A stretch of DNA of 64,000 bases from Roseateles koreensis (GTDB lineage: Bacteria; Pseudomonadota; Gammaproteobacteria; Burkholderiales; Burkholderiaceae_C): NCBI RefSeq assembly GCF_028595305.1, contig NZ_JAQQXS010000020.1:1-64000 (forward strand), in the 5' to 3' direction. The first letter of the stretch is position 1, and each line of letters begins with the position of its first letter. Positions 19,873-44,703 of the stretch are shown here, piece after piece. The notes under the pieces were generated by a model. The model searched no databases and had not been told where the DNA came from. It saw nothing but the letters and a program-made list of their open reading frames with translations. A program made the position numbers and the translations under genes.

Positions 19873-19901
19873 GGCTTGAGTCCTTGTGGTGCGGCCATGG
19901 G

Positions 19902-21596: not shown

Positions 21597-21759
21597 GGCA
21601 GGCAGGTGGAGCGTGGGAGAAAAATGCCAGGCCGCACGCGCAGCCTGGCCAACAGACCCCTGAGAACAGGGGGCACCCATAAACACGTTCTTAGAGAAAA
21701 CAAAGAAAAGGTGGCGTGATGGCGGAGAGAAGACGCAGAGAAAGCGCGCTTCTTTTGAG

Positions 21760-21796
21760 GGCCGGCACGTGCTTCAGGTCGAGGTGCGTGCCGACC
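21760..21796 (-). terminator. Hairpin after the xyloglucan TBDR gene
   Basis: On the minus strand GGTCGGCACG pairs with CGTGCCGGCC (10 pairs, one G-U), 10 bases after the TBDR stop. No clear T-run follows, so it may be a partial terminator or an mRNA-stabilising stem that lets the receptor be made in excess over the enzymes. The rest of the 209-base gap to GH35 holds no gene. Confidence 0.55.
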
Positions 21797-21805
21797 CTCA
21801 CCGCA

Positions 21806-24800
21806 TCAGAACGAGTAGCTCGCTTGCACGCTGTAGCTCGGGCCCACTGCAAACCAGGCGCGGCCCTTCATGCCGATGTGCTGGTCCATCAGCTGCTTGT
21901 AGGTCGAGTCGGTGAGGTTGCGACCTTCCAGGCCGATGGTGAACTTGTCGGTGACCTTGTAGAAGATCGACGCGTCCATCTGCCCATAGGCATCAGCCCA
22001 CACCGGCAAGCCCCAGGCCACGTTGTGCTGACCCACGGTGGAGCTGGCGGGGTTGGTGTCCGTGCCATCGGTGCCCTGTGTGCCGTTGACGTTCACGGCT
22101 TGCAGGTATTTGGAGCGCCAGCTGTACGCGATGCGCGCCGAGATCGGGCCCTGGTCATACAAGAAGGCCAGGTTGTACGAGTGGCGGGACATATTGGCCA
22201 GCGGCAGGTCGCCGAAGGTGCGGCCGTTCACGTCGCAACCGTTGAGGTTCAGGTTCAGATTGGCTGCAGTGCCGTCGCCGCCCGAGCAATAGGCCTGGTT
22301 GACGGGGTTGTACAGGGACTGGTGGCTGTCCACAAAGGTGTAGTTGGCCGACACGCCGAAGCCTGACATCCAACCCGGCAGCTTGTCGAAGTACTGCTGG
22401 AAAGCCAGCTCCACGCCGCGAGCCGTGCCATTGGCGCCGTTGACCGGGCCAGTCACGGTGAAGTCTTGCGGCTTGCCGTTCACGTCCATCAATTGCTTGA
22501 CATAGGTCTGGTTGATGATGATGTCGTGCATCTGCTTGTTGAACGCGGCGACCGTGAAGGAGCCGGTGCGGTCGAAGTACCACTCCGCCGTCAAGTCCGT
22601 GTTCTGCGCCGTGATGGGCTTGAGCATCGGGTTGCCGGAAGCGGTGCCCGTTTGATGGACGGCATCGATGACGATGGAGGTCGAGCCATCCGGGTTGGCC
22701 ACCGTGTGCTTGTCGACCGTCTGCGTCAGCGAGGTGTAGGCCTGCAGCTGCGAGAAGTCGGGGCGCGACATCGACGTGGCGAAGCCGAAGCGGAACTGCA
22801 GCTTGTCGCTGGCCTTCAGACGCAGGTTCAGGCTGGGCAGGGCGTTGGTGTAGGCGTTGCTGAAGTTCTGCGCCTCTGCGAAGGCGGGGATGATGGGCAC
22901 GGGGCTGCCGGCAAGGCTGCTACCCGATGGCGGGGTCGGCACGTTGGACGTGAAGACGGTGTAGCCATGTGCGGTGGCGTCGGTGTGTACCAGGCGCAGA
23001 CCCACATTGCCGTCCACCGGCAGCTTCCAGTCATCAAAGCCGAAACGCAGCTGGCTGAACGCGGCTTGCGTGCGCTCGCGCTGGTCGTTGGTGCCGGCAG
23101 GGTCGGTGCCAAAAGTGGCCGCCTTCCAGGCATCGCAACTGCCCCAGCCTTGCGCGGCCGTTTGCTCAGCACACAAGATGTCGTGGTACTTGTGCAGAGC
23201 TGTATAGCTGTCCGGGAAGCCGGAGGCGGTGGAGGTGTTCGGGAAGACCAGCGATGGAACCGAGGTGTTGTTGTTGAAGAAGTTGTTGAAGGCGTGCAAG
23301 TTGGTGTTGCCGCTGAAGCGCGGGTCGCCCAACTTGGCCAGCCCGCTGATGTTCCAGCCCACTTGCCACGGTTGTGTGATGGCGGCCCAGTTATAGCCAG
23401 GGTTGGAGTTCTGGGTCAATGCATCGCGGTCGGTCAGCCGCACGCCAAAGCGCAGGTCGATCAGCACCGGGTCTTCAAACTTGAACAGGGCATCACCCTT
23501 CCATGACTTCTCGTTGGCGACACTCTTGTCCATGTGTTCCATGGTGAAGGCCCAGTAGTAGCTGGACGGGTCGGCCAGGGCGGCGCGGTCGGCGGCATCA
23601 AAGCTCAGGCGCGGCACGCCACCCGAGAGGTCGATGTTTTCCTTGGCCATCTGCACGCCGGTGGCGACGGTGGAGTCGAGGCTTGAGGTCTCGGCCTTCA
23701 CGAATTGCAGGTCAGAGCGGAAGGTCCAGCGGTCGGAGGCGTGCCAGGTAAATTTCCAGGCCAGATCCTGGGTACTGGAGTTGCGTGTGGCCACACGGGT
23801 GTCGGCGCCGAAGTTGATGCCACCATCGGCGGCATCACGCAAGGTGCCCTTGACCAGCGCGCCGTTGGCATCGTAGGTGGCGCCGGGATCGACCGTGATG
23901 TTGTAGGGGGTGGACTGGGCGAAGATGGCGTTCTCGTTCCAGGTCATCTTGTACTTGGAGCGGAAGTAGGTCACGTCGGACGCGAACTTCTCGTTCTTCC
24001 ACTGCAAGGCGAGGTACTGGCCGTCGCGCTTGCGGTCGAACTCCAGGGTGCGCCATTGCGAGCCCTTGGGAATCCACACGGTCTGGCCGGCCACCACATC
24101 GCTGCGGGGGTAGTAGGGCTCGACCTGGAAAGCGTCGGTGCGCAGGGCGCTCTCTGAATGCGCCAAGTCGACCAGCAGGCCGAAGTCGCCCACATCCGTC
24201 TTCCAGCGGTTCGAGAACATGCCCGACACCGAGGGCGAGGACTTGCGGCGCAGCACGGAGTAGGAGTCTTGCACCGAGACCGCGGCCTTCATGCCGTCGA
24301 AATCAAAGGGCATGGCGGTGCGCAGATTGACCAAGCCGCCGATGGAGCCTTCGATCTGCTCGGCCGACGGGTTCTTGTACACATCCACGCCGGCCATCAA
24401 CTCGGGCGGCACATCCTCGAAGTTGAGTGAGCGGCCCCCATTGGCGGAGAAGGCGTCGCGGCCGTTCAACTCCGAGCGCACAAAGGTCAGGCCGCGGATG
24501 GTGATGCCCGAGCCTTCGATCGAGAAGTGCTCCGGGTCGCCCTTGGCCATGGTGCGGTCGATGGCCACGCCGACAATGCGTTGCAGCACCTCGGTGACCG
24601 AGCGGTCGGGCAGTTTGCCGATATCGTCAGCGACGATCGAATCGACGATTTCGTCCGAGTTTTGTTTGATCTTTTGCGCGGATGCCAGTGCGGCCCGTTG
24701 GCCCTTGATCACCACCGTTTCCAAAGCCATGGGTGACTTTGAATTGCCGCTGGCTGCCGGGGAGGCCGCAGCATCAGGGGAGGCGGGCGGCGTGGATTGC

Positions 24801-24877
24801 GCCATCGCAGCGGCGCTCCAAAACAGGGCGGCTTGGGCGGCCGCGATTGACAACGCTGTCCTTTGAAATTGTCTCAT
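21806..24877 (-). CDS. TonB-dependent receptor for xyloglucan oligosaccharides
   Basis: The 1023-residue outer-membrane protein has a signal peptide (LSIAAAQAALFWSAAAMAQ), a plug domain (ETVVIKGQRAALASAQ, LPDRSVTEVLQRIVGVAIDR, GSGITIRGL) and a long beta-barrel ending in an aromatic residue (VQASYSF), as outer-membrane proteins do. Size and plug type match the large Caulobacter/Xanthomonas carbohydrate receptors. It presumably takes up products of GH74. The ATG at 24877 lacks a good ribosome-binding site nearby; a GGGGAGAG run is about 30 bases upstream and an in-frame TTG there would add 13 residues. It leads the seven-gene minus-strand operon. Confidence 0.93.
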   Translation of the reverse strand: MRQFQRTALSIAAAQAALFWSAAAMAQSTPPASPDAAASPAASGNSKSPMALETVVIKGQRAALASAQKIKQNSDEIVDSIVADDIGKLPDRSVTEVLQRIVGVAIDRTMAKGDPEHFSIEGSGITIRGLTFVRSELNGRDAFSANGGRSLNFEDVPPELMAGVDVYKNPSAEQIEGSIGGLVNLRTAMPFDFDGMKAAVSVQDSYSVLRRKSSPSVSGMFSNRWKTDVGDFGLLVDLAHSESALRTDAFQVEPYYPRSDVVAGQTVWIPKGSQWRTLEFDRKRDGQYLALQWKNEKFASDVTYFRSKYKMTWNENAIFAQSTPYNITVDPGATYDANGALVKGTLRDAADGGINFGADTRVATRNSSTQDLAWKFTWHASDRWTFRSDLQFVKAETSSLDSTVATGVQMAKENIDLSGGVPRLSFDAADRAALADPSSYYWAFTMEHMDKSVANEKSWKGDALFKFEDPVLIDLRFGVRLTDRDALTQNSNPGYNWAAITQPWQVGWNISGLAKLGDPRFSGNTNLHAFNNFFNNNTSVPSLVFPNTSTASGFPDSYTALHKYHDILCAEQTAAQGWGSCDAWKAATFGTDPAGTNDQRERTQAAFSQLRFGFDDWKLPVDGNVGLRLVHTDATAHGYTVFTSNVPTPPSGSSLAGSPVPIIPAFAEAQNFSNAYTNALPSLNLRLKASDKLQFRFGFATSMSRPDFSQLQAYTSLTQTVDKHTVANPDGSTSIVIDAVHQTGTASGNPMLKPITAQNTDLTAEWYFDRTGSFTVAAFNKQMHDIIINQTYVKQLMDVNGKPQDFTVTGPVNGANGTARGVELAFQQYFDKLPGWMSGFGVSANYTFVDSHQSLYNPVNQAYCSGGDGTAANLNLNLNGCDVNGRTFGDLPLANMSRHSYNLAFLYDQGPISARIAYSWRSKYLQAVNVNGTQGTDGTDTNPASSTVGQHNVAWGLPVWADAYGQMDASIFYKVTDKFTIGLEGRNLTDSTYKQLMDQHIGMKGRAWFAVGPSYSVQASYSF

Positions 24878-24882
24878 ATCGT

Positions 24883-24896
24883 TTAGTTTGTTAGTT
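24883..24896. promoter_or_regulatory. Candidate ROK/XylR half-sites at the TBDR start
   Basis: TTAGTT-TG-TTAGTT lies just before the TBDR start codon. The TTAGTTTGTT portion looks like the half-site of Firmicute XylR operators, and the same TTAGTT hexamers occur in the ROK regulator's own promoter. A repressor bound here would block initiation or translation. Confidence 0.4.
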
Positions 24897-24910
24897 GGTT
24901 TCAGGACTCT

Positions 24911-24926
24911 CCCCAATCACTTGGGG
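24911..24926. promoter_or_regulatory. Inverted repeat in the TBDR leader
   Basis: CCCCAA-TCAC-TTGGGG is a perfect six-base-pair hairpin in the leader of the TBDR transcript. On the minus strand the 3' arm runs into a GGGGAGAG purine tract. The remaining part of the 318-base gap (24927-25195) shows no gene; it must contain the TBDR promoter, but I cannot place -35 and -10 boxes with confidence. Confidence 0.4.
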
Positions 24927-25195
24927 CCACAAGCGCAAAGCGGGGTCAGCCGCCACAAAACAAATTCGCCGAATCGATACGATTGAAAATCGTGGTGGCG
25001 ATCATCAACATCGCCAATAGAAGCCGCCGGGTCGCCGGGTAGGCGGGGCAGCTTTTGATGCGCTCCAATAACGCATTACGTAGGCGGACTCTACAAAAAT
25101 GGCAAGCGCTGGCTCAAACTCAAGCTGCACGCTCGGGGTGCAGCCCGACCGTGGTGTGGCGAGACGGTTGAGCGGCAGGCACAAGCACATGGGGT

Positions 25196-26512
25196 TCAGA
25201 TGCAAATGCGGTTGAAGAGGTTCTCAAGCATTTCCTGGCGGCCTGAGACTGGCATCACATCGGCGTTCTGGGTCAGTACCTGGTCGGCCAGTTGGTCCAG
25301 CGAGACGCGGCCGGCGAGGATGTCTTGCCCGGCCTTGGTGTCCCATCCGGCGTAGCGTGCGTCCAGGGCTTGGCCCAGGCGGCCGTCGTTGATCATCTTT
25401 TCGGCGATCAGCAGGGCACGGGCGCAAACGTCCATGCCGCCGATGTGGCCGTGGAACAGGTCTTCAGGGTCGATGGACTGGCGGCGCACCTTGGCGTCGA
25501 AGTTCATCCCGCCACTCCCCAGGCCGCCGGCGCGCAAGATGTGGTACAGCGCCGTGGCGGTTTCGGGCACGTTGTTGGGGAACTGGTCGGTGTCCCAGCC
25601 CAGCTGAGGGTCGCCCCGGTTCATGTCGATGCTGCCCAGGATGCCCAGCGCCGCTGCAGTTTCAATCTCATGCTCGAAGCTGTGGCCTGACAAGGTGGCG
25701 TGGTTGGCCTCGATGTTGACCTTGACTTCTTTTTCCAGGCCGTAGCGCACCAGGAAGCCGTAAACGCTGGCGGTGTCGAAGTCGTACTGGTGCTTGGAGG
25801 GCTCGCGCGGCTTGGGCTCGATCAGAATGGTGCCCTTGAAGCCGATCTTGTGCTTGTACTCAACCACCATATTGAGGAAGCGGCCGAGTTGGTCCAGCTC
25901 CTGGCCCAGGCGCGTGTTGAGCAGGGTTTCATAGCCCTCGCGGCCGCCCCACAGCACGTAGTTTTCGCCGCCCAGCTTCAGGGTCGCGTCCATGGCGTCA
26001 CGCACTTGCGCGGCGGCCATGGCGAAGATGGCGGGGTCAGGGTTGCTGGCCGCGCCAGACATGAAGCGGCGGTGGCTGAACAAATTGGCCGTGCCCCACA
26101 GCAGCTTCATGCCGGTGCGTTGTTGGTGGGCGCCGAGCACGTCCACCATACGCAGGAAGTTCTCGTGGCTCTCGCGCGGCGTGGCCCCTTCGGGTGCCAC
26201 GTCTCGGTCGTGGAAGCAGTAGTACGGCGCACCCAGTTTGGCGAAAAATTCAAACGCGGCTTCGGCCTTGGCGTGCGCCAATTCCATGGGCGTGCCGCCC
26301 TCGAACCAGGGCCGTTGGAAGGTGCCGCTGCCAAAGGGGTCCAGCCCCGTCCAGCAGAAGGTGTGCCAATAGCAAACGGCGAAGCGCAGATGCTCTTCCA
26401 TGCGTTTGCCCAGTACGAGGCGGTCTTTGTCGTAGTGCTGAAAGGCCAGAGCGTCAGTGCTGTTCGCGCCGCGGTATTCAATCTTTGAGATGTCTTGGAA
26501 GTAAGTCTTCAT
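25196..26512 (-). CDS. xylA: Xylose isomerase
   Basis: This 438-residue enzyme converts D-xylose to D-xylulose in the cytoplasm. It aligns by eye with E. coli XylA from the start ([36 protein letters not shown]) and holds the active-site [20 protein letters not shown], metal-binding [16 protein letters not shown] and [17 protein letters not shown]. The ATG at 26512 gives the family N-terminus; the longer frame is spurious. It follows xylB by 43 bases in the ROK-xylB-xylA unit. The xylose presumably comes from GH31 action on xyloglucan. Confidence 0.96.
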
Positions 26513-26555
26513 GAGCAAGTGGGGCTGGACAGTTGGGGGCTTGGCGACGCTCAGT

Positions 26556-28052
26556 TCAGGCCAATGGGGCTGAAAGTGATTGCAGCTGCGAATAAATCTT
26601 GCGAAATCTCTGCAGCCGCAGCTGCAAGGTTTGATGGCGTTGGGCTTGAGGGGTGTGGCGGGCCGCAATGCCCGGCTTGCTGCACACCTGCGCCGGATCG
26701 CCGCCGGCGGCCAGCCAGCCCAGGCGCGCGGCACCCAGGGCGCCGCCGGCTTCAGCGCCGGTGTGCCGCACGATGTCGACATTCAAGGTGTCTGCGATGA
26801 GTTGCGCCCAATAGGCGCTGCGGGCACCGCCGCCGACCAGCGGCAAAACCTGTACCTCGGTGCCGGAGGCCTGCAGTGCGGCCAGGCCGTCGGCCAGCCC
26901 GAAGGTCACGCCTTCGAGCACGGCATAGGCGCAGCGTGCGCGGTCGCTTTGGTGGTTCAGGCCGTAGAACATGCCTTGCGCGAAGGGGTCGTTGTGGGGC
27001 GTGCGTTCGCCGGCCAGATAGGGCAGAAAAGTGGGCGCGTCAGCGAGCGCCTCGGCGGGCAGGGCTTCCACCTCGGTCAGCAGTTGGGCCTCATCGGCGG
27101 CGCCGCTGAGTTGCACAAACCATTTCAGGCAACTGGCCGCTGACAACATCACGCTCATCTGGTGCCAGCGTTGCGGCAGCGCATGGCAGAAGGCATGCAC
27201 GGCGGATTCAGGATTAGGGCGGTAGCGGTCGTTCACCACGAACAGCACGCCCGAGGTGCCCAGCGAGATGAAGCCGTCGCCCGGCTGCGTGGCGCCGATG
27301 CCGATGGCACTGGCCGCGTTGTCGCCCGCACCGCCGGCAATCACCACCTCGTGCGTCAGGCCCCAGGCGGCCGCCAGTTCAGGGCGCAAGCGGGCTGAAA
27401 TTTGATTGCTTTCAACCAGGCGTGGCATGTGCGCGCGGCTGAGGTGGCAGGCGGCGAGCAACTCGTTCGACCAATCGCGTGCAGCAACGTCCAGCCACAA
27501 GGTGCCGGCTGCGTCCGAAGGGTCAGACACCTTTTCACCACTGAGCAAGAGGCGCAGATAGTCTTTGGGTAGCAGCACGGTGCGGATCTGCGCAAAGAGT
27601 TGCGGCTCGTGCTTTTCAAGCCACAACAACTTCGGGGCAGTGAAGCCGGGCATGGCGAGGTTGCCAGCAATGGCGTGCAGTTGCGGGGCGCGCTGGGTGA
27701 GCTCGACGCATTCGGCGTGGCTGCGGCCATCGTTCCACAAAATGGCAGGGCGCAGCACTTGGTCTTGCGCATCGAGCAGCACGGCACCATGCATCTGGCC
27801 CGACAAGCCGATGGCGCGCACTTGTGAGAATGCGAGAGGATGCGCCGCCCGCAATTGGGCGACTGCGCGCTCGGTGGCAACCCACCAGTCCTGCGGCGCT
27901 TGCTCGGCCCAAAGCGGTTGCGGGCGTGACACGCCGAGTGCCGCGCCGGCCTGCCCGACGACGAGGCCATCGGCATTCAAGAGCAGTAGCTTGACTTCGG
28001 AGGTGCCGAGGTCGATGCCGAGAAAGCTGGCTTGCTGCGCGCCCATCGTCAT
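26556..28052 (-). CDS. xylB: Xylulokinase
   Basis: The 498-residue FGGY-family sugar kinase phosphorylates D-xylulose to xylulose 5-phosphate with ATP. Visible features are the N-terminal phosphate loop [15 protein letters not shown], the [11 protein letters not shown] substrate motif, [14 protein letters not shown], and the second-domain [14 protein letters not shown] and [13 protein letters not shown] motifs. Length is normal. Its ATG overlaps the ROK regulator's stop (ATGA), so the two are translationally coupled, and xylA follows directly. Confidence 0.95.
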
Positions 28053-33772: not shown

Positions 33773-34498
33773 ATGAGCACTTCGCATCGACTGATTTGGA
33801 GCCTTGTTTCGGGGCTGTCGGGTTTGGCCTTGGTCAGCACTGCGCAAGCCAGCCTGATCGGGTCTGTGACCGTTGACTTGTATGCGCCCGGCGGATTGAC
33901 CTCTGACGGCACGCCGGGCAACACTGTTTCAACGGCAATCCATGTGACCGAGAGCACCTCGGTGTCAACGGGCATTTTTGCCAGTTCGCTGGATCCGGGG
34001 CCGATCGGCGGCGCAGCGGGGTTCATGCTCGACCATGAGCAGATCACCTTTGTGGGTAACTCCATCTTGCTGCATGTCGATGCCGGTGAACAAACGCCTG
34101 GCAATTTGTTCTACACCGGTTACCTGGGCAGTGGTGCAGAACATGCACGTTATCAATTCTCTGGCCTCAACATTCCTGGTGAAACCATCACCGGCTTCAA
34201 GGTCTATGACTTTGATGGTTATGGCACGTCGGGCACCACGGGTGCAGTGAACCTGACAGACCCCAATGATCTGGTCCACCTGATTGACGCCAGCACGCTG
34301 AGTTTCGATCTGGACACTCTGCAATTCAAAGATCGTTTGAGGGAAACCTACAACTACGCGGAATTTCGAATTGACCTAATCACCCAAGCGAATGGCAACG
34401 GTGGCGGTGGCGATTTGCCGGAGCCATCATCGCTGGCGTGCCTGGGGGCCGCTGGCTTGATGATGTTTGCGGCGCGTCGTCGTGGTTGGCTGCGCTAG
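33773..34498 (+). CDS. PEP-CTERM sorting domain protein
   Basis: The 241-residue secreted protein has a signal peptide (IWSLVSGLSGLALVSTAQAS) and a C-terminal PEP-CTERM tail: LPEPSSLACLG, a hydrophobic stretch and a basic RRRGWLR end. Such tails are recognised and cut by an exosortase that works with exopolysaccharide production. The middle (about 30-205) is Gly/Thr-rich and beta-predicted, with no family I recognise; NGNGGGG forms a short linker before the tail. ATG 33773 follows an AGGGG ribosome-binding site. Its stop is 14 bases before the DUF6916-like gene, so it probably opens the collar-protein operon. No exosortase gene is in the window. Confidence 0.85.
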   Translation: MSTSHRLIWSLVSGLSGLALVSTAQASLIGSVTVDLYAPGGLTSDGTPGNTVSTAIHVTESTSVSTGIFASSLDPGPIGGAAGFMLDHEQITFVGNSILLHVDAGEQTPGNLFYTGYLGSGAEHARYQFSGLNIPGETITGFKVYDFDGYGTSGTTGAVNLTDPNDLVHLIDASTLSFDLDTLQFKDRLRETYNYAEFRIDLITQANGNGGGGDLPEPSSLACLGAAGLMMFAARRRGWLR

Positions 34499-34512
34499 TT
34501 GGGGGCGGCGAG

Positions 34513-34803
34513 GTGCTGTCCCTCACGCATTTCAGCCCCTTTGTGGGCGAGCATTTTGGATTTAGCACGGCGGCTGAAGGGCCAGCCCAGGCGCATGCCA
34601 CGTTGATTGAGGCCGCCTTGTTGACGTCGCCAGCGTTCGGGGCGCGTCAACCGTTTCACCTGATTTTTGAAGGCCCGGTCGAGTCACTGTTGGACCAGCG
34701 GACCTATCAAGTCCGGCACGCCGCGTTTTCAGGCCTGGAATTGTTCATCGTGCCAGTCGGCCAAAGTCGTTCAGGCATTCGCTACGAAGCCGTTTTTAAT
34801 TAG
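34513..34803 (+). CDS. DUF6916-like small protein
   Basis: The 96-residue protein carries the pattern SLTHFSPFVGEHF, FHLIFEGPVES and a hydrophobic end (LELFIVPVGQ) that I associate with DUF6916, a small beta-rich domain often encoded beside collar-domain proteins. A GTG start at 34513 gives the usual N-terminus; the frame is open further upstream but overlaps the PEP-CTERM gene. The next gene starts 12 bases after the stop, with its SD overlapping the stop. Function unknown; perhaps a chaperone or structural partner of the collar proteins. Confidence 0.7.
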   Translation: MLSLTHFSPFVGEHFGFSTAAEGPAQAHATLIEAALLTSPAFGARQPFHLIFEGPVESLLDQRTYQVRHAAFSGLELFIVPVGQSRSGIRYEAVFN

Positions 34804-34815
34804 GAGTCGACGACC

Positions 34816-35328
34816 ATGGGAACACCCTATCTCGGCGAGATCCGCTTGATGAGTTTTGCCTATGCTCCCAGAGGCTGGGCGCAGTGCAATGGGCAGTTGC
34901 TGCCCATCAATCAGTACCAGGCGCTTTTCGCGCTCTTGGGAACGTATTACGGCGGCAACGGCCAAAGCAACTTCGCGCTGCCCAATCTGCAAGGACGCAC
35001 CCCTTTGCACGTGGGGCCTACCACCGTTCAAGGCCAGTCAGGCGGCGCGGAAAACGTCACACTGCTGCAGGCCCACTTGCCCGTGCATTCTCACGGGCTC
35101 AGTGGCACGAGTGACTTGGCCAACGCCAGCGCGCCCGGCTTGGCCGTGCCGGCCGCCAAAGGCCGCGGTGGTGTCAATCACTATGCGGGCGCGGGCTCGG
35201 TCAATGCGAGCCTGGACGCTTCGTCGGTCAGCTTGGTGGGGGGCAACCAGCCGCACAGCAATATGCAGCCCTACCTGGTGATGAATTATGTGATTGCCCT
35301 GCAGGGCATCTTCCCGTCACGTAACTGA
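34816..35328 (+). CDS. Phage tail collar domain protein (MdpB-like), copy 1
   Basis: The 170-residue protein opens with the collar pattern GTPYLGEIRLMSFAYAPRGW, then CNGQLLPINQYQALFALLGTYYGGNGQSNFALPNLQGR, a variable His-rich middle (LPVHSHGLSG) and the conserved end MNYVIALQGIFPSRN. The family shares the short-tail-fibre collar fold (PF07484) and includes microcystin-dependent protein MdpB. No signal peptide is seen. First of three tandem paralogues, preceded by a TAGGAG ribosome-binding site. No other phage genes are near, so a cellular role is likely. The role is unknown. Confidence 0.9.
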   Translation: MGTPYLGEIRLMSFAYAPRGWAQCNGQLLPINQYQALFALLGTYYGGNGQSNFALPNLQGRTPLHVGPTTVQGQSGGAENVTLLQAHLPVHSHGLSGTSDLANASAPGLAVPAAKGRGGVNHYAGAGSVNASLDASSVSLVGGNQPHSNMQPYLVMNYVIALQGIFPSRN

Positions 35329-35356
35329 TGTCGATCGGACAGGACAGGAGGTCCAA

Positions 35357-35857
35357 ATGTCAGAGCCTTATGTGGGTGAAATTCGTTTGTTCGCAGGGAG
35401 TTTCGCGCCTGTCGGTTGGTATTTCTGCAACGGCGCGCTGTTGCCGATTTCCGAGTTCGACACCTTGTTCAATTTGATTGGCACCACCTATGGTGGCGAT
35501 GGTCAAAGCACGTTTGCCCTGCCGGATTTGCAAGGCCGTGTGCCGGTGCATCAAGGCAGTGGCCATGTGATGGGCGAGCGTGCGGGCGTCGAAGCGGTCA
35601 CGCTCAGCGTGAGCCAGATGCCCATGCACACCCACACACCACAGGGCAGCAGCACGACCGCGATTGCCGGGTCGCCGGGTGGCAATGTGCTGGCCGCGCC
35701 GCCCATCAATTCTTACGGGCCCGGGCCGGCCACGGTGGCCATGGCTGACGCCGCTATTGCAGTGCAAGGCGGCTCGCAGCCTCACAACAATATGGCGCCA
35801 TTCACGACGCTGAACTACATCATTTCATTGTTCGGCGTTTATCCGTCACAGAACTGA
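35357..35857 (+). CDS. Phage tail collar domain protein (MdpB-like), copy 2
   Basis: The 166-residue second paralogue starts SEPYVGEIRLFAGSFAPVGW, has CNGALLPISEFDTLFNLIGTTYGGDG, ALPDLQGRVPVH, a His/Thr-rich middle (MPMHTHTPQGSS) and the end LNYIISLFGVYPSQN. GGAGGT lies just before the ATG at 35357; the open frame extends upstream over copy 1 but is not needed. It differs from copy 1 mainly in the middle third, where ligand or assembly specificity would be expected in a trimeric fibre tip. Spacing to copy 3 is 10 bases. Confidence 0.9.
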   Translation: MSEPYVGEIRLFAGSFAPVGWYFCNGALLPISEFDTLFNLIGTTYGGDGQSTFALPDLQGRVPVHQGSGHVMGERAGVEAVTLSVSQMPMHTHTPQGSSTTAIAGSPGGNVLAAPPINSYGPGPATVAMADAAIAVQGGSQPHNNMAPFTTLNYIISLFGVYPSQN

Positions 35858-35867
35858 GGAGTTCGTC

Positions 35868-36386
35868 ATGGCAGACCAATTTGTTGCCGAGGTCCGGATG
35901 TTTGGCTTTGGCTTTGCGCCAACGGGGTGGGCGGCTTGCAATGGGCAACTCTTGCCCCTTTCGCAAAACACGGCGCTGTTCTCCCTGCTTGGCACGTTCT
36001 ACGGCGGCAATGGCACCTCCAATTTTGCCTTGCCCAATTTGCAGGATCAATTCGCGGTGGGCATGGGCAGTGGGCCCGGGCTTTCGCAGCGAAGCCTGGG
36101 GGAGCAGGGTGGCGAGGCGACGGTGGCTTTGTCGCCGTCAACAATGCCGCAGCATACCCATGCCTTGAAGGCCGGCGCGGCGGCCAGCAGCACCAATCCG
36201 ACCGGCGCAGTCATGGCGCCGCCGGCCGGCGGGGCGCTTGAATACCGCATTCCTGCCAACCCAACCCCGATGGCGGGGGCGAGCCTGGCAAATGCCGGCA
36301 ATGGACAGCCTCATGAGAATCGCCAGCCCTTTTTGGCCGTGAACTTTTGCATCGCCATGCAGGGGATTTATCCCGCCCGCGGCTGA
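35868..36386 (+). CDS. Phage tail collar domain protein (MdpB-like), copy 3
   Basis: The 172-residue third paralogue starts ADQFVAEVRMFGFGFAPTGW, has CNGQLLPLSQNTALFSLLGTFYGGNG, a middle with MPQHTHALKAG and the end VNFCIAMQGIYPARG. GAGGAG precedes the ATG. The triplet arrangement, with one copy starting GxPYLGEIRL, one SEPYVGEIRL and one ADQFVAEVR, recurs in other bacteria as I know it, which suggests the three products assemble together. Short TGAGCGGC repeats surround the stop. Confidence 0.9.
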   Translation: MADQFVAEVRMFGFGFAPTGWAACNGQLLPLSQNTALFSLLGTFYGGNGTSNFALPNLQDQFAVGMGSGPGLSQRSLGEQGGEATVALSPSTMPQHTHALKAGAAASSTNPTGAVMAPPAGGALEYRIPANPTPMAGASLANAGNGQPHENRQPFLAVNFCIAMQGIYPARG

Positions 36387-36412
36387 GCGGCTGAGCGGTT
36401 GAGCGCTTGATC

Positions 36413-36943
36413 ATGCGAGTCCAACTCCGCCCCGCCGACGCTGTACACGATCAGGCCTTGATGCGCCAGATTTATGCCAGTACCCGCGAAGACGAGTTGG
36501 CCTTGACCCCGTGGTCGGCGGAACAACGCCGCGCCTTCACGGACATGCAGTTCAACGCCCAGCAGGCGCACTACCTTCTGCATTACCCGCAATCGATCTG
36601 CCAAGTGATTTCTGTCGTCGAGGGTGATGCGCTCAGGGGCGGCGTGCAAGACGTTGGCCGCCTTTGGGTGGATCAGCGCAGCAACTCGGTCCATGTGCTG
36701 GACATCAGCGTCTTGAGTGCGGCCCGAGGCCAGGGCATTGGCACCTTGTGCCTGGAGCAACTCCAACGTGAGGCGCACCAGCGGGGGCATTCGGTGACCA
36801 TCTTTGTCGAGTTGCACAACCCCGCCCGCCGACTTTATGAGCGCTTGGGATTTGAGGCCGAGGGTGCACCCCAGGGCCTGTACCAATTCATGGCCTGCAG
36901 GCAGCCGGTCAGCCACACCGTCAATGAGGAATGTCTATCATGA
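36413..36943 (+). CDS. GNAT family N-acetyltransferase
   Basis: This 176-residue protein has the GNAT fold: an N-terminal RPADAVHDQALMRQIY region, the acetyl-CoA loop LSAARGQGIGTLCLEQL (about 100-120), and the C-terminal NPARRLYERLGFEAEG. It would move an acetyl group from acetyl-CoA to an amine. The substrate is unknown; its position in the collar operon suggests it modifies a cassette product. Its stop overlaps the next gene (ATGA), showing co-translation. ATG 36413 is preferred over an in-frame TTG two codons earlier. Confidence 0.88.
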   Translation: MRVQLRPADAVHDQALMRQIYASTREDELALTPWSAEQRRAFTDMQFNAQQAHYLLHYPQSICQVISVVEGDALRGGVQDVGRLWVDQRSNSVHVLDISVLSAARGQGIGTLCLEQLQREAHQRGHSVTIFVELHNPARRLYERLGFEAEGAPQGLYQFMACRQPVSHTVNEECLS

Positions 36944-37371
36944 AGAAGAGATCCTTTGTCTTGGGGGCTTGCGCCGTGCTGGTGGCGCCGCATGCAATGG
37001 CTTGCCCGTCGCCAGTGTCCTTGGCGTCCTCGGCTGGCCACAGTGCCGCAGGTGCAACCGGAGCCCAAGTACCGGGTTTGGGGCAGTTGCGTGACGGCGA
37101 AGCTTGGCAGCAATGGGTCCAGCAGGAGTTCGTCATCCACGGTGCAGACGGTAGCCGCAGCGTCGCTGTTCTCGACCAGTGTGCACAGGCTGCGGTGGCC
37201 GACGGCGTCAGCCACCAATTCGTGTTGGGGTTCAGTTGCGCACAGGCCTTGCCGTCGGGGCTTTACCGGCTTGAGCACCGCAACGGTGAACGGATAGACA
37301 TTTTTCTCAACGAGTCGGGCCTGGCGTCTGCGGCCCGGATGCGCGCTGAGTTCAATGTGTTGACGACGTAG
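36940..37371 (+). CDS. Secreted DUF6916-like protein
   Basis: The 143-residue protein has a signal peptide (KKRSFVLGACAVLVAPHAMA, cut before Cys) and a domain that echoes the small protein at 34513: QEFVIHGADGS, VSHQFVLGFSCAQALPSGLYRLEHRNGERIDIFLNE. The resemblance to DUF6916 is by pattern only. Four cysteines (mature region) may form disulfides in the periplasm. GAGGA lies before the ATG at 36940, which overlaps the GNAT stop by four bases. It closes the collar cassette. A paralogue of the first gene that gained export is a reasonable reading. Confidence 0.65.
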   Translation: MKKRSFVLGACAVLVAPHAMACPSPVSLASSAGHSAAGATGAQVPGLGQLRDGEAWQQWVQQEFVIHGADGSRSVAVLDQCAQAAVADGVSHQFVLGFSCAQALPSGLYRLEHRNGERIDIFLNESGLASAARMRAEFNVLTT

Positions 37372-38309: not shown

Positions 38310-38446
38310 AGCGCCACGGTTGACGCCTGCTGCAATGTTTGCCTCCTTCACGGAATATTTGCAGTGCGGACGAGCCGCCACAGAGCACCGAAGTTCCAAA
38401 GTTGCGATCACCAAGGCTTTTCAGACCTTGCAAGCGGAGACAAACC

Positions 38447-40723
38447 ATGCATACCCCCATTCAACGTGTTCTTTTGAGCGCCACGCCACTCGCCTTGGCC
38501 ATTTCTCTGGCGTATTCGCCGGCCAACGCGCAAGAAGTGCAGCCGGCGGTTCCGCAGGGCGCTGCCGCCAATTCGGGAGACACACTCAAGCTCGACCAAG
38601 TGGTGGTGACTGGCGCGTCCACCCGCGTTACCAAGATGCAGCAAAGCTTGTCGGTCAGCTCCATGGACGCCGAGCAAATCACCAAATCCGGCGCCACCAA
38701 TGCTGCTGAGTTGCTGCGTTCGGTACCCGGCTTGCGGGCCGAATCAAGCGGCGGCGAGGGCAATGCCAACATCACCGTGCGGGGCGTGCCGCTGTCAGCC
38801 GGTGGGTCGCGTTATGTGCAGATGCAGGAAGACGGCTTGCCAGTATTGTTGTTTGGCGATATCGCCTTCGGTACGGCGGACGAGTTTGTTCGCGCCGACA
38901 TCAATACCGATCGCCTCGAAGTGGTACGCGGTGGGTCGGCGTCGACGCTGGCTTCAAACTCACCGGGCGGTGTCATCAACTTCATCAGCAAGACCGGGAA
39001 GGAGCAGGGTGGATCGATCGGCCTGACGGCGGGCCTGGGCAACAAGCTGTGGCGCGTGGACGCCGATTACGGCGGCAGCCTTGGGAACGGGACGAGCTTC
39101 CACGTGGGCGCCTTTCAGCGCATTGGCGAGGGCGGCCGTCCGACCGGGCAAGACCTTGAAAAAGGCGGGCAACTCAAGGCCAACATCACGCAAAAGTTCG
39201 ACGGCGGCTTTGTCCGCGTGAACTTCAAGGCGCTGGACGACAAGACCCCTTCGCTCATGCCGGTACCTGTCACGGTCAGCAACGGCAAGATCAACACCAT
39301 CGCCGGGATTGATCCCCGCACCGCGTTCTTCATTTCGCCAAGTCTGAATTCCGACAGCACCTACAACAAGGATGGGGGCACCTCGGTGTCTGATCCGCGG
39401 GACGGCTTGCGGGTGAAAAGCACGGCCATTGGTTTTGAAGCAGGGCTGGAACTGGGCCAGGGTTTCAATGTGGACGAAAAGTTCCGCACGGCATCCAATT
39501 CGGGGCGCTTCATCGCCTTGTTCCCGGCCGACAACGGCAGCAACGGCACTGCGAAGTTTTTCACCGGCACCTTGTTCAACACCTCGTTGGACAATATGAA
39601 CAACACCTTCAACGACTTGAAGGTGAGCAAGGTCATCAAGGGTGATGACATCAAGACCACCTTGGTGGGCGGCTTGTTCTATGGCAAGCAGACAGTGGCG
39701 CAAACCTGGTTCTGGAATCAGTACAACATCACCATGAGCGGCGAAAACTCGCATGTGGTGGACGCCAACGGCAACGCGTCGTCAGCGCCGGTCGCGCAAG
39801 GGTGGTCAACCTGGGGTGGCTGCTGCACCCGCACCTTCAATGTGGATTACACCGAAACCTCACCCTACGCCGCCGCTACAGTCGAGGTGGGCAAGCTGAT
39901 CATCGACGGCAGCTTGCGCCGTGACGAACAAAAGGCCAAGGGCTACACCTTCAGCGGCGACAACACCAACAAGGTTTGGGATGCGGCCAGCAAGAAGTTG
40001 GTGGACTACAAGGTTTCACATACTTCCTATTCGCTGGGCGGCAACTACACGCTCAACAAAGATCTGGCGGCTTTTGCACGCGAGAGCAACGGCGTGGCCT
40101 TCAGCGCTGACCGGTTGCTGTATGGCAATCCGCTGGACGGCTCGGTGCCCATCAGCATCAACGAGATTGATCAGGTGGAAGGCGGCCTCAAATGGCGGGG
40201 CCAAGGCATGAGTGTGTTTGCCACCCTGTTCAACGCCCGTACCAAAGAAAGCAATTTTGAGGTGACGACGCAGAAATTCACTGCCAACAAGTACGAGGCC
40301 AATGGCCTAGAGTTGGAGATGGCCTACCAGATGGGAGAATTCCGCCTAGCGGGCGGCGCGACTTATACGCACGCCCGAATCAAGGACTCCAGCGACGCCA
40401 CCACGGTGGGCAAGACACCGCGCCGCCAAGCTGATTTTGTGTACCAGATTTCGCCCAGTTACGCCTTTGGCAACCTCGATCTGGGCGCCGCCTTGATCGG
40501 CTCAGGCAAGTCCTACGGCGATGATGCCAACACCATCACCATGCCGGCCTATGTGGTGATTAACGCCTTTGCAAACTACCAGTTCAACGACAAGATGCAA
40601 CTCTCCTTGTCGGCCAACAACCTCTTCAACGCCTTGGCTTACACCGAGATTGAGGGTGATGGGCATGCGGCGCGCGCGTTGACGGGCCGCACCGTTCGGG
40701 CGACCCTGAAGTACAGCTTCTGA
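38447..40723 (+). CDS. TonB-dependent receptor, probably for sucrose
   Basis: The 758-residue outer-membrane protein has a signal peptide (LSATPLALAISLAYSPANAQ), a TonB-box-like region (LKLDQVVVTGAS), a plug (GATNAAELLRSVPGLRAESSGGEGNANITVRGVP, LEVVRGGSASTLASNSPGG) and a barrel ending LKYSF. It heads an operon with fructokinase, symporter and sucrose phosphorylase, so sucrose or a related fructoside is the likely cargo, as with SuxA of Xanthomonas. ATG 38447 follows GCGGAGA and opens the signal peptide; the longer frame is not coding. Substrate is inferred from neighbours. Confidence 0.9.
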   Translation: MHTPIQRVLLSATPLALAISLAYSPANAQEVQPAVPQGAAANSGDTLKLDQVVVTGASTRVTKMQQSLSVSSMDAEQITKSGATNAAELLRSVPGLRAESSGGEGNANITVRGVPLSAGGSRYVQMQEDGLPVLLFGDIAFGTADEFVRADINTDRLEVVRGGSASTLASNSPGGVINFISKTGKEQGGSIGLTAGLGNKLWRVDADYGGSLGNGTSFHVGAFQRIGEGGRPTGQDLEKGGQLKANITQKFDGGFVRVNFKALDDKTPSLMPVPVTVSNGKINTIAGIDPRTAFFISPSLNSDSTYNKDGGTSVSDPRDGLRVKSTAIGFEAGLELGQGFNVDEKFRTASNSGRFIALFPADNGSNGTAKFFTGTLFNTSLDNMNNTFNDLKVSKVIKGDDIKTTLVGGLFYGKQTVAQTWFWNQYNITMSGENSHVVDANGNASSAPVAQGWSTWGGCCTRTFNVDYTETSPYAAATVEVGKLIIDGSLRRDEQKAKGYTFSGDNTNKVWDAASKKLVDYKVSHTSYSLGGNYTLNKDLAAFARESNGVAFSADRLLYGNPLDGSVPISINEIDQVEGGLKWRGQGMSVFATLFNARTKESNFEVTTQKFTANKYEANGLELEMAYQMGEFRLAGGATYTHARIKDSSDATTVGKTPRRQADFVYQISPSYAFGNLDLGAALIGSGKSYGDDANTITMPAYVVINAFANYQFNDKMQLSLSANNLFNALAYTEIEGDGHAARALTGRTVRATLKYSF

Positions 40724-40743
40724 CCTGCGCCGAGGAGACCCAC

Positions 40744-41751
40744 GTGACTGCAATTGAAGGGGGCGTCTGCCTGCTGGGGGAAACCTTGGTGGATGAGTTT
40801 CACGACCGGAAGGTTGCGGGCGGGGCGCCCTTCAATGTGGCGCGATCGCTGGCGGCCTTGGTCGCCCCGGCGAAGGTTTTGTTGCTGTCGGCACTCAATT
40901 CAGACGATACAGCGGGTCAGTGCATTTTGGCCAGTATGCGTCGATTCCATCTGGATGAAGCGGGCTTACAGCTGACACCGGCATGGCCCAGCGGCCGAGT
41001 CAGCGTCAGCGAGCAAGCGGGTGCAGGGAGCCCGGATGATGCAGGTGAGGGCAGCGGGGCCCATGTTTTCACCATTCATGGGCCCGCCGCCTGGGAGCAC
41101 ATTGCGCTGGCGCCCGCGCAGGCCTTGCTTGCCCACACGCGGCCGCGTATTTTTTATTTTGGCAGCCTGGCGCAACGCAGCGAACCCTCACGGCGGAGCG
41201 TGCGCGCGCTGGCCGAGCAAGCCCGGGCTCAGGCGGCGCTGTGCTATTTGGACCTGAATCTTCGTCCGGGCAGCAGTGAGCCAGATCTGGCGGCGCAGAG
41301 CTTGTCTCGCGCTGATTGGGTCAAGGTCAGCGAAGGCGAGTTGGCGCAGCTGTTCGCATGGTTCGGCCGGGCGAGTGATGCCGAGTTGGACCCTCTCGCG
41401 GCACCGATTGAATTGAGTGGCGCGGTGGACGCCTTACAACAGCGCTTTGGTTTGCGCATGCTGGTGTTGACGCGCGGTGCGGCGGGCTACGCTGCCTTCG
41501 GCGCAGGGGGGCAGGTCTTGATGGAGGGCGCTGCGGCGCCGGTGCCGCGCTTGGTGGATACGGTTGGCGCGGGCGATGCCTTCTCCGCCATGTTGTTGGC
41601 GGCGACCCTGCGTCGCCAAACCCTGGTACAGGCCCTGGCCTTGGCAAATCGCTACGCGGCAGCGCTGTGCGGTGAGCGAGGGCCGATACCGGATGGTGAC
41701 GCGTTCTTCGCGCCTTGGCGGGCGGCCTTGGCGGAGGAGACCCGTACATGA
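40744..41751 (+). CDS. PfkB-family fructokinase
   Basis: The 335-residue ribokinase-like sugar kinase has the N-terminal CLLGETLVDEFHD, GGAPFNVARSLAAL substrate motif, YLDLNLRPG and the C-terminal anion-hole motif VDTVGAGDAFSAMLLAA with catalytic Asp. It should phosphorylate fructose to fructose 6-phosphate, using the fructose released by sucrose phosphorylase. The GTG start at 40744 is supported by GAGGAG. Its stop overlaps the symporter start (ATGA), so translation is coupled. The sugar is inferred from the locus. Confidence 0.88.
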   Translation: MTAIEGGVCLLGETLVDEFHDRKVAGGAPFNVARSLAALVAPAKVLLLSALNSDDTAGQCILASMRRFHLDEAGLQLTPAWPSGRVSVSEQAGAGSPDDAGEGSGAHVFTIHGPAAWEHIALAPAQALLAHTRPRIFYFGSLAQRSEPSRRSVRALAEQARAQAALCYLDLNLRPGSSEPDLAAQSLSRADWVKVSEGELAQLFAWFGRASDAELDPLAAPIELSGAVDALQQRFGLRMLVLTRGAAGYAAFGAGGQVLMEGAAAPVPRLVDTVGAGDAFSAMLLAATLRRQTLVQALALANRYAAALCGERGPIPDGDAFFAPWRAALAEETRT

Positions 41752-43148
41752 ACACCTCTTCGGCAGTGGCCACGACAACGACAACGACAACGACAACGAC
41801 AGCGGCAGCGGCAACCGCGTCGGACCCGGCCAAACCGCATTTGAGCTTCTGGCAGATCGTCAACATGAATGTCGGGTTCTTCGGCATTCAGTTCAGCTTT
41901 GGTCTGCAACAAAGCAATATGAGCCCCATCTACAAATACCTGGGGGCGGACGAGGCCAGCTTGCCTTTGCTGTGGCTGGCGGGGCCGTTGACGGGCTTGC
42001 TAGTGCAGCCCCTCATCGGCGCGATGAGCGACCGCACGGTCACGCGGTGGGGGCGCCGCACGCCGTACTTCATGATTGGCGCGCTGCTCTGCAGCTTGGG
42101 GCTGTTGCTGATGCCAGGCAGCCCCACGCTGTGGTTTGCCGCTGGATTGTTGTGGATTCTGGATGCCGCCAACAACGTGACCATGGAGCCTTATCGCGCC
42201 TATGTCAGCGACCGCCTGAATCCCGCCCAACATGCGCAAGGCTTTCTCACGCAGAGCGCGTTTACCGGGCTGGCGCAGACACTGGCCTACCTCACGCCGT
42301 CTCTCATGGTGTGGCTGGGCATGGATCGTGACGCCGTCAACGGCAGCCATATTCCGCAGACCACGGTGGTGGCCTTCATGGTCGGTGCGGTTTTTTCTTT
42401 CACCACGGTGTGGTGGTCGGTGCGGCGTGTGCCTGAACTGCCGCTGAGTACCGATGAGTTGCAGCGTTTGGCGCAGTTGCCACGTGGCTTGGGGTCGACC
42501 TGGCGGGAGATTGTCGGCGCCATCAAAGACATGCCGCCCACCATGCGCCAGTTGTGGTGGATGAAACTGTTTCAGTGGTACGGCATGATGTGCTACTGGA
42601 TCTACATCGTGCCAGCACTGGCGCAAACGATCTTTGGCAGCAGCGACGCCACCTCAAGCGGTTTTCGTGAGGCCGGTTTGTTGAATGGGCAGATCGGGGG
42701 CTTCTATAACTTCGTCGCCTTCTTCGCGGCCTTTGCGCTGCTGCCCTTCACCCGCCGCTTCGGTGCGCAGAAGGTTCACGCGCTTTGCCTGACGCTGGCC
42801 GGCGTGGGCCTGTGGGCCGTCCCCGAGATCAGCAACCGCTGGCTGCTTTTTGTCCCCATGGTGGGCATGGGGCTGGCTTGGGCCAGCATCATGGGCAACC
42901 CCTATGTGCTTTTGGCGGGCAGCATTCCGCCGCAGCGGGCGGGCGTGTACATGGGCATTTTCAATATGTTCATCGTCATCCCGATGCTGATCCAGATGTT
43001 GACGTTGCCGCTGATCTACAACAGCTGGCTCGGCGGGCAACCCGCAAACGTCATCCGCCTCGCCGGTGGCCTGTTGCTGCTTGCCGCTGTGGCGGTGCTG
43101 CGCGTTAAAACCGCGCCCTCGGCTTCTACGCCGGTTGATGCCGGTTGA
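41748..43148 (+). CDS. Sucrose/sugar MFS-type symporter
   Basis: The 466-residue inner-membrane protein has about 12 helices and the loop [20 protein letters not shown] common to sucrose transporters of the SuxC/plant SUT group, with a large central loop. It likely brings sucrose across the inner membrane with protons. The N-terminus is odd: ten threonines then alanines, coded by a CGACAA hexamer repeat (about 41771-41801). ATG 41748 overlaps the fructokinase stop. The stop codon lies in a tandem duplication of CCGGTTGATG (43131-43150). Confidence 0.88.
41771..41801 (+). repeat. Hexanucleotide repeat coding for a Thr tract
   Basis: CGACAA is repeated about four times in tandem, with partial copies at the edges, near the start of the symporter gene. 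Because each unit is two codons, gain or loss of copies changes the Thr tract length but not the frame. Confidence 0.85.
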
Positions 43149-43209
43149 TGCCCGCTGAACGCACCGGCTCCCAAATTTCGCCCCGTCCTTTCGCCTGAAT
43201 TGCTCTGCC

Positions 43210-44703
43210 ATGAAGAACCAAGTACAACTCATTACCTATGTCGACCGGATGGGCGGCGGCGACATCGCCAGCCTGCGCCAATGGCTCAAAGGCCCCATGC
43301 AGGGCGTGTTTGGTGGCGTTCATCTGCTGCCATTTTTCTACCCTATTGATGGTGCGGACGCTGGCTTCGATCCGATTGATCACACGCAGGTGGACCCTCG
43401 GCTCGGCGATTGGTCCGACATTCTGGCGCTCAGCCAAGACACGGAGGTGATGGCCGATGTCATCGTCAATCACGTGTCTGCGGACTCGCCGCAATTTCTG
43501 GACTATTCGGAGCGGGGCGATGCGTCGCCCTACGCTGGCATGTTTCTGACCTTGGACGCGGTGTTTCCTGACGGCGCCAATGAGCGGAGTTTGCTGAAGG
43601 TCTATCGCCCAAGGCCAGGGCTGCCGCTGCATTGCGTGCAGCTCAAAAATGGCCAGAAAAAAATTCTCTGGACCACCTTCACGCCCAAGCAGTTGGACAT
43701 CGACGTGCAGCACCCGGAAGGGCGAGCCTATCTGGACAGCATCTTGCAGCGCTTTGCGGCGTCAGGCATTCGCATGGTGCGCCTGGATGCTGCGGGTTAT
43801 GCCATCAAAAAAGCGGGCGACAACTGCTTCATGATGCCCGAGACCTTCGACTTCATCGCCGAATTTGCCGGGCGCGCCAAGGCGCTGGGCATTGAGGTGC
43901 TGGTGGAAATTCATTCTTATTTCCAAAGGCAGATCGAGATCGCGCGGCAGGTCGACTGGGTGTACGACTTCGCCTTGCCGCCGCTGGCGCTGCATGCCTT
44001 CTTCTTCAAGACCGCCGAACCCTTGAAGCGCTGGATTGCGCAGCGGCCCTGCAATGCCCTGACCGTGCTGGACACGCATGACGGTATTGGCATCATCGAC
44101 ATTGGTGCCGATGGCGCGGATCGGGTCGGTTCACCCGGTCTGGTGCCACCCGCGGAGTTGGATGCCCTGGTGGAGCGTATTCACAGCCTGAGCCAAGGGC
44201 AGAGCCGCCAAGCCACGGGCGCTGCGGCCTCCAATCTGGATCTGTATCAGGTCAATTGCACTTTCTACGACGCCCTGGGCCGCGATGATTGCCGCTATCT
44301 GCTGGCGCGGGCCTTGCAGTTCTTTCTGCCCGGTGTGCCCCAGGTCTATTACGTGGGCTTGTTGGCCGGGCATAACGACATGGAACTGCTGTCCCGCACA
44401 GGCGTCGGGCGCGACATCAACCGACATCGCTACGACGCGGCTGAAGTCGAGTTGGCGCTGCGGCGCCCGGTGGTGCAGTCCTTGGTCCAGTTGATTCGCC
44501 TGCGCAACGCGCATCCTGCGTTTACTGGCACCTTCGAATTGTTGCCCTCAAGCGCACAAGCCTTGCACATGCGCTGGCGCACCGGCATACATGAGGCACG
44601 TTTGAGCGTGGATTTTGAGACGCTGGCACATGAGCTTTTCTTCAGCGGGAATGGTGAGGCTGGCGTTGAGGGCGCTGGTCGGTTGATCCGCTATCCGCAA
44701 TAG
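43210..44703 (+). CDS. Sucrose phosphorylase (GH13 subfamily 18)
   Basis: The 497-residue enzyme has the compact GH13_18 layout: QLITYVDRMGGGDI, GGVHLLPFFYPIDGADAGFDPIDH, VMADVIVNHVS, nucleophile Asp in VRLDAAGYAIKK, acid/base Glu in EVLVEIHSYF, and the LDTHDGIGIID motif. It splits sucrose with phosphate into glucose 1-phosphate and fructose. It has no signal peptide and acts in the cytoplasm; the fructose goes to the fructokinase two genes upstream. Related glucosylglycerate or glucosylglycerol phosphorylases are possible, but the locus favours sucrose. Confidence 0.9.
   Translation: MKNQVQLITYVDRMGGGDIASLRQWLKGPMQGVFGGVHLLPFFYPIDGADAGFDPIDHTQVDPRLGDWSDILALSQDTEVMADVIVNHVSADSPQFLDYSERGDASPYAGMFLTLDAVFPDGANERSLLKVYRPRPGLPLHCVQLKNGQKKILWTTFTPKQLDIDVQHPEGRAYLDSILQRFAASGIRMVRLDAAGYAIKKAGDNCFMMPETFDFIAEFAGRAKALGIEVLVEIHSYFQRQIEIARQVDWVYDFALPPLALHAFFFKTAEPLKRWIAQRPCNALTVLDTHDGIGIIDIGADGADRVGSPGLVPPAELDALVERIHSLSQGQSRQATGAAASNLDLYQVNCTFYDALGRDDCRYLLARALQFFLPGVPQVYYVGLLAGHNDMELLSRTGVGRDINRHRYDAAEVELALRRPVVQSLVQLIRLRNAHPAFTGTFELLPSSAQALHMRWRTGIHEARLSVDFETLAHELFFSGNGEAGVEGAGRLIRYPQ

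Follow-up and report, generated by a model that had tools for sequence, protein, structure and literature searches.

The Collar Gene Block of Roseateles koreensis

At positions 33,773 to 37,371 of a 64,000-nucleotide stretch of Roseateles koreensis DNA (contig NZ_JAQQXS010000020.1, positions 1 to 64,000; referred to as the window) seven genes on the plus strand encode three consecutive tail-collar proteins (PF07484) together with a PEP-CTERM protein, two DUF6916 proteins and a GNAT acetyltransferase. An initial annotation, made from the sequence alone, had described such a tightly packed block as a possible surface system, and all seven genes were verified at about the positions it had given:

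33773..34498, plus strand: PEP-CTERM protein; signal peptide (by eye) and C-terminal PEP sorting tail
34513..34803, plus strand: DUF6916 protein D1; GTG start, 96 residues, PF21880 at 5.5e-24
34816..35328, plus strand: collar protein alpha; 170 residues, PF07484 at 1.7e-27, subfamily a
35086..35094, plus strand: H-x-H of collar alpha (residues 91-93); possible equivalent of the zinc site in T4 gp12
35357..35857, plus strand: collar protein beta; 166 residues, PF07484 at 8.8e-27, subfamily b
35627..35635, plus strand: H-x-H of collar beta (residues 91-93)
35868..36386, plus strand: collar protein gamma; 172 residues, PF07484 at 2.4e-24, subfamily c
36153..36161, plus strand: H-x-H of collar gamma (residues 96-98)
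36413..36943, plus strand: GNAT acetyltransferase; 176 residues (an upstream TTG at 36407 is possible), PF13508 at 2e-11, PF00583 at 2.5e-11
36940..37371, plus strand: DUF6916 protein D2, the secreted DUF6916-like protein; PF21880 at 2.6e-8, Tat-like (KR) signal by pattern

The packing holds as described, with gaps of 10-28 bases (14, 12, 28, 10 and 26 in block order) and an ATGA overlap of D2 with the stop of the GNAT gene. This spacing fits co-transcription of the block; a promoter scan of the block found no site, and terminator-like sites were no commoner there than chance. Within the whole genome PF07484 matched the three window collars only (85.5-95.6 bits, above the curated cut-off of 24) and PF21880 matched D1 and D2 only. 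The PEP-CTERM protein reaches 16.6 bits with TIGR02595 (cut-off 16) and 18.6 bits with Pfam PF07589, which is under the cut-off of 20.7; two exosortases (PF09721 matches) are encoded in the genome, so that sorting tail and exosortase are both present. No signal peptide was seen on D1, the predicted structure of which consists of one helix plus six strands (predicted local distance difference test, pLDDT, 92.1). None of the seven block proteins matched the PADLOC anti-phage defence models at E 0.01.

Three Collar Subfamilies

The collar tree and the subfamily count were based on 80 triplet loci out of 90 collected ones (see below), as the ten loci lacking exactly three collars were left out. 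In the tree of the resulting 240 collars, three sets of 81, 73 and 81 rows crossed the phyla and five rows fell outside; a 65-row core of the third set had a support of 96. With three profiles seeded from the window collars, one member of each subfamily was found in 71 of the 80 loci, whereas 2000 label shuffles averaged 18 such loci and never exceeded 31. The count was 75 of 80 when each fifth of the loci in turn was excluded from profile building, with labels taken from the full clustering; in a later set of triplets it was 17 of 20. Judged from these sequences, the three collars belong to three ancient subfamilies, and the earlier notion of three specialised paralogues is upheld in both sets of triplets. 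Such retention of one of each would be expected from an obligate assembly of three different subunits.

The statement that the collars differ mainly in their middle third held in part. Pairwise identity of the window collars is lowest at residues ~95-141 (20-26%, compared with 52-61% at residues 1-66 and 41-55% at residues 142-170), but by strict thirds (54-63%, 31-45% and 34-36%) the last third is as divergent as the middle one. The most variable stretch is flanked by conserved ends, as in a fibre-tip head. The single-chain model of collar alpha (pLDDT 84.6) matches a cyanophage tail fibre, the receptor-binding domain of T4 gp12 and the needle tip of gp37, and thus has the fibre-tip fold of the T4 gp12/gp37 type as far as a predicted model can tell. 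An H-x-H motif lies inside residues 71-130 in 222 of 223 collars, and H91 and H93 of collar alpha are aligned in 103 of the 104 rows of alignment A1. For T4 gp12, the consulted part of the structural report describes two histidines (H-x-H) per chain, contributed by three chains, which hold zinc on the threefold axis (PMC3004832). Motif and predicted fold together point to a trimeric fibre tip of the T4 gp12/gp37 kind, the likeness of the site being one of motif and not of residue-by-residue alignment.

Distribution of the Gene Set

The 90 loci were drawn from two sources. DUF6916 served to choose the window, six relatives and three plasmids (from 24 plasmid records, 3 of which were opened), and collar alpha served to choose the best 80 of 205 named loci. 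Exactly three collar genes were present in 80 of the 90 loci, a GNAT of the window kind in 75, DUF6916 in 61 and all three kinds in 61, with flanks that are short in some of the loci. The conserved synteny of PF07484 triplets with DUF6916 and GNAT, for which the initial annotation had recommended a search, does therefore exist, and the acetyltransferase counted there as part of the system is tied to it. According to their record titles the named loci belong to seven phyla: Pseudomonadota, Acidobacteriota, Bacteroidota, Actinomycetota, Bacillota, Chloroflexota and Verrucomicrobiota.

In a sample not selected for triplets, the collar profile matched in 90 of 398 genomes of the phylum, a number that includes the own genome and the previously used G041. 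Among the matches listed, 36 tandem clusters reached at least 180 bits with their best member: 24 triplets, five pairs and seven singles, where weak cluster members may be missed. Within the window's genus the set occurs in 5 of 18 genomes, the own one included. Annotated plasmids of Sinorhizobium, Ruegeria and Pontibrevibacter each carry three genes called "tail fiber" together with a GNAT and a DUF6916 gene, beside a giant gene whose label is putative Ig domain in the first, choice-of-anchor D in the second and hypothetical protein in the third.

Signal Peptides, GNAT and DUF6916

The N-terminus was surveyed in 223 collars with a clear start; the 17 of 240 without one were left out. The collars of the window and of most loci start with M-x-x-P-[FY]-x-G-E-I and carry no signal peptide. 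F/Y-x-G-E-I follows exactly four residues past the Met in 202 of the 223 collars, and residue 2 is small (S, A, G, T or P) in 205 and D in 15. Two genomes of the window's genus, G008 and G015, carry Sec-like signal peptides on all three collars, and cleavage, as judged by eye, would leave a similar short N-terminus. In both of them a PEP-CTERM gene lies directly upstream of the collars, there is no DUF6916 in the genome and no GNAT of the window kind in the 19.5 kb around. Signal-bearing collars also occur in L087, L088, L096, L099 and G625, the only collar of G049 (L170) has a signal-like N-terminus, and in Hymenobacter (L050, L091) some collars have RR-type N-termini, both genomes being without DUF6916.

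Signals were called by pattern, with no trained predictor, in a survey which 120 loci entered (eight short duplicates of longer loci removed, L154-L166 unused, G008 and G015 represented by L167 and L168); L170 was dropped from the count because its collar has no start motif. Signals on at least half of the collars were accompanied by GNAT or DUF6916 in 0 of 7 loci, compared with one or both genes in 95 of the 112 others; the signal-bearing loci include near relatives (L087/L088, L096/L099, L167/L168) and are not fully independent. Thus, GNAT and DUF6916 accompany the signal-less form. Since trios of the same genus carry Sec-like signals and lack GNAT and DUF6916, the trio was probably made for the outside, and its mature form is probably located outside the cytoplasm. 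Together with anchored partner proteins nearby, the signal-bearing trios of the genus make the surface location considered in the initial annotation likely.

With the RimI model the window GNAT scores 36.4 bits, below the cut-off of 86.4; by this measure it resembles RimI but is not RimI itself. N-terminal acetylation of the collars would be the simplest guess for its role, because the collars retain their exact N-terminus and the GNAT is missing from the sets in which a signal peptidase would generate it. For D2-type proteins, signals like those of the twin-arginine translocation (Tat) pathway were called 26 times in 25 of the 90 loci, two calls in L021, from Roseateles saccharophilus DSM 654, being doubtful; 18 of the 26 have RR and the window has KR. 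This suggests that in those lineages Tat export of a folded complex may rely on D2 as carrier. Among 16 further genomes ten have a single DUF6916, one has two and five have none, and carriage by D2 is not the general route because 15 of the 16 have one DUF6916 or none.

The same data bear on the alternative that GNAT and DUF6916 form a dedicated export module, in which D2 with its Tat signal would carry the folded signal-less collars as hitchhikers, while signal-bearing sets would need none. Besides the twin-Arg- or KR-like signals on D2, the complete lack of loci with both collar signals and GNAT or DUF6916 agrees with such a module, as do the RR-type collars of the two Hymenobacter genomes without DUF6916; the D2 type was, however, called in 25 of 90 loci only, the DUF6916 counts in the 16 genomes speak against it, and the signals are pattern calls. 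We regard this alternative as unlikely.

Possible Surface-Anchored Partners

A T/G/S/N/V-rich protein of at least 500 residues or a PEP-CTERM-like protein was found within 4 kb in 71 of 97 collar loci, some of them without a full trio, versus 1 of 20 control regions, which were derived from the searched phylum only, were unmatched by phylum and were scanned over the whole 12.5 kb. The PEP pattern used here missed L015, L022 and L168. Twelve of the giant proteins were scanned, ten of them as 900-residue C-terminal pieces. Most carry immunoglobulin (Ig), PKD, HYR, Big or CBM repeats, and six have an anchor or sorting tail that fits their lineage: an autotransporter barrel in Sinorhizobium, a type IX secretion system tail in two Bacteroidota, SLH in Paenibacillus, IPTL-CTERM in Diaphorobacter and a dockerin in an acidobacterium. 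In the window's relatives the giant's place is occupied by a PEP-CTERM protein: homologues adjoin the collars in L015, L016, L017 and L020-L023, and PEP-CTERM proteins lie upstream in L167 and L168. We propose that the PEP-CTERM protein at 33773..34498 may be the surface-anchored partner of the window collars.

Outside the window's close relatives, PEP-CTERM-like proteins (by pattern) stand directly beside trios at L174:11401-12801 and L045:5183-5896, so the pairing recurs. A repeat-like domain of ~160 residues, in many cases with a Cys-Pro motif at its end, recurs among giants of several phyla; it is found at the C-termini in L037, L048, L033, L079, L038, L065 and L063 and in the inner part in L029.

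Comparison with Known Systems and Proposed Function

No description of the triplet, its partners or its function was found in the papers searched. The window partner with its sorting tail, in a genome with two exosortases, resembles PEP-CTERM/exosortase surface proteins, but the one literature search aimed at such proteins paired with collar trios gave no example. Bacterial PF07484 proteins are presumably the family named COG4675, "microcystin-dependent protein", as the name suggests. Proteins of COG4675/PF07484 are listed in the part of a soil metaproteome study consulted (PMC5579227), and one PF07484 protein appears in that of a Ruegeria exoproteome study (PMC4949626).

A close counterpart is found in the virophage DSLV2. 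As described in the portion of the report drawn on here, three consecutive PF07484 proteins co-purify as a stable 1:1:1 heterotrimer, which is seen as fibres ~16 nm long and binds to Synechococcus; the proteins of each position group in a clade of their own (PMC12724248). The bacterial sets likewise consist of three consecutive PF07484 genes with a fibre-tip fold and one clade for each, with an order that may change and a deep support of 85-88. The virophage proteins are part of a virion and encoded beside a minor capsid gene, whereas the bacterial sets, spread over seven phyla, are encoded on chromosomes and megaplasmids and accompanied by GNAT, DUF6916 and in many cases an anchored partner, and their neighbours in the window and on the three annotated plasmids are bacterial. 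Bacterial chromosomal sets are not mentioned in that portion of the report (PMC12724248). With T4 gp12 and gp37 the collars share the domain, the fibre-tip fold, an H-x-H motif like that of the gp12 zinc site and a variable part between conserved ends; the T4 proteins differ as homotrimers that end long phage fibres, whereas the window proteins are three paralogous stalkless heads of ~170 residues (166-172) with no virion genes among eight neighbours. The block represents a real and widespread bacterial set, a variant of the virophage three-part collar fibre tip that is apparently used as a cell-surface head.

To the following reading we give a somewhat better than even chance. The collars alpha, beta and gamma would form an intertwined, metal-pinned heterotrimer with the tip fold of T4 gp12/gp37 and without a stalk, located outside the cytoplasmic membrane and held on the surface by the co-encoded anchored protein. 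In the window this anchor would be the PEP-CTERM protein; other lineages would use giant proteins with Ig/PKD/HYR/Big repeats and different sorting tails. The variable tip (residues ~95-141) might bind a glycan or another surface, which would make the complex a domesticated fibre-tip lectin or adhesin. GNAT and DUF6916 would serve the signal-less form: the dedicated GNAT may act on the subunits in the cytoplasm, most likely on the N-terminus after removal of Met, and the DUF6916 proteins may assist folding or export.

Several observations weigh against this reading. The deepest splits of the collar tree have a support of 85-88, under the mark of 95; 9 of the 80 and 3 of the 20 loci fail the one-of-each sorting, and the gene order varies (abc 37, bac 27 and bca 7 of 80). 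The AlphaFold 2 collar models are single chains. The M-D start in 15 of 223 collars speaks against a single simple acetylation rule; to our knowledge, a RimI-like enzyme is not expected to use such starts. Export of the signal-less collars raises further difficulties: 17 of the 119 loci lack both signals on at least half of the collars and GNAT or DUF6916 within reach (six of these are 3.5-kb stretches), and three Paenibacillus genomes combine signal-less collars and a GNAT with no DUF6916 at all. In a sample of the class, two of the four DUF6916 genomes besides the own one have no collar within 1.5 kb. As for the anchor, 26 of the 97 collar loci have no partner by the pattern used, and no anchor was seen in 6 of the 12 giants (one an incomplete sequence, one without any match).

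Part of these data could also be expected if the three collars formed three separate homotrimers, or a repeating fibre of three subunit kinds, in place of one alpha-beta-gamma head, with the surface role kept. T4 gp12 and gp37 are homotrimers according to the consulted parts of both reports (PMC3004832; PMC12724248), single-collar loci make up 7 of the 36 strong clusters among the matches listed, and the gene order is permuted; against this stand the one-of-each retention across seven phyla and the 1:1:1 heterotrimer described in that part of the virophage report (PMC12724248). We consider this alternative unlikely.

In its widest form the heterotrimeric reading would describe a widespread class of bacterial surface appendages in at least seven phyla, with an obligate phage-derived heterotrimeric head and an exchangeable glycan-binding tip on lineage-specific anchors, exported without signals by a GNAT/DUF6916 module in which, for some lineages, a Tat-borne DUF6916 acts as carrier. 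This generalisation is possible but clearly less probable than its opposite. If true, stray "tail fiber protein" annotations, as on the three plasmids, would become a defined three-part surface system in at least seven phyla, many records of which derive from soil, water and plants, and DUF6916 would gain a function. The natural swap between signal peptides and GNAT plus DUF6916 offers a genetic handle on the roles of the partners and on the signal-less exit of a folded phage-like head. The three ancient subfamilies, the signal peptides that replace GNAT and DUF6916, the Tat-like D2 and the giant repeat partners go beyond the initial annotation.

Genomic Surroundings and Phage Relatives

Upstream of the block lie genes for a GH31 glycosidase and a tryptophan-halogenase-like protein, and downstream greB (the next gene), a TonB receptor, a pfkB kinase and an MFS transporter. 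By these surroundings the block is not a prophage. None of the eight neighbour genes scanned in the window is phage-like or encodes a virion protein; one terminase family, the single phage family tested across the genome, is absent genome-wide, and a tblastn search with the window DUF6916 against 50,697 phage records gave zero matches. The initial view that the block is no prophage remnant is supported by these results, and in the data examined it was not seen within an intact prophage in close relatives, the flanks of which were not scanned for phage genes.

A cytoplasmic role, or a phage-tail or tailocin leftover without a surface role, appears very unlikely to us. It would agree with the frequency of PF07484 in phages, with phage relatives of up to ~40% identity and with the lack of signal peptides on the window collars. 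Of 80 loci from viral contigs, 64 have a single collar and eight have three or more, two of these with an adjacent GNAT. The eight agree with a leftover, whereas the many single-collar loci, the lack of DUF6916 in the phage records, the signal-bearing trios in the same genus, the anchored partners and the non-phage surroundings argue against it.

Collar trios were observed on the IMG/VR contigs L175 (two sets), L176 (three sets), L177, L179 and L183. A GNAT adjoins in L177 and L179; by eye, L183 has a GGDEF-like protein and L175 a Tat-signal-like protein. These contigs are either bacterial DNA called viral, or the trios reside on mobile elements. On the short viral contigs L178, L180 and L181 (IMG/VR) all three collars are nearest to subfamily c; these sets may be of the virophage type.

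Two apparent sugar-utilisation regions flank the block. The region at 15182-28052 (minus strand) contains, as read by eye from the open reading frames, glycosidase-like genes, a TonB receptor and xylose-isomerase-like and xylulokinase-like genes. The region at 38339-44703 (plus strand) contains the TonB receptor, the pfkB kinase, the MFS transporter and a possible GH13-type enzyme, the latter without a Pfam match at 1e-8. The predicted N-terminus of the MFS transporter (~41770-41800) contains ten consecutive threonines followed by alanines, encoded by a short DNA repeat, and this start may be phase-variable or mis-called.

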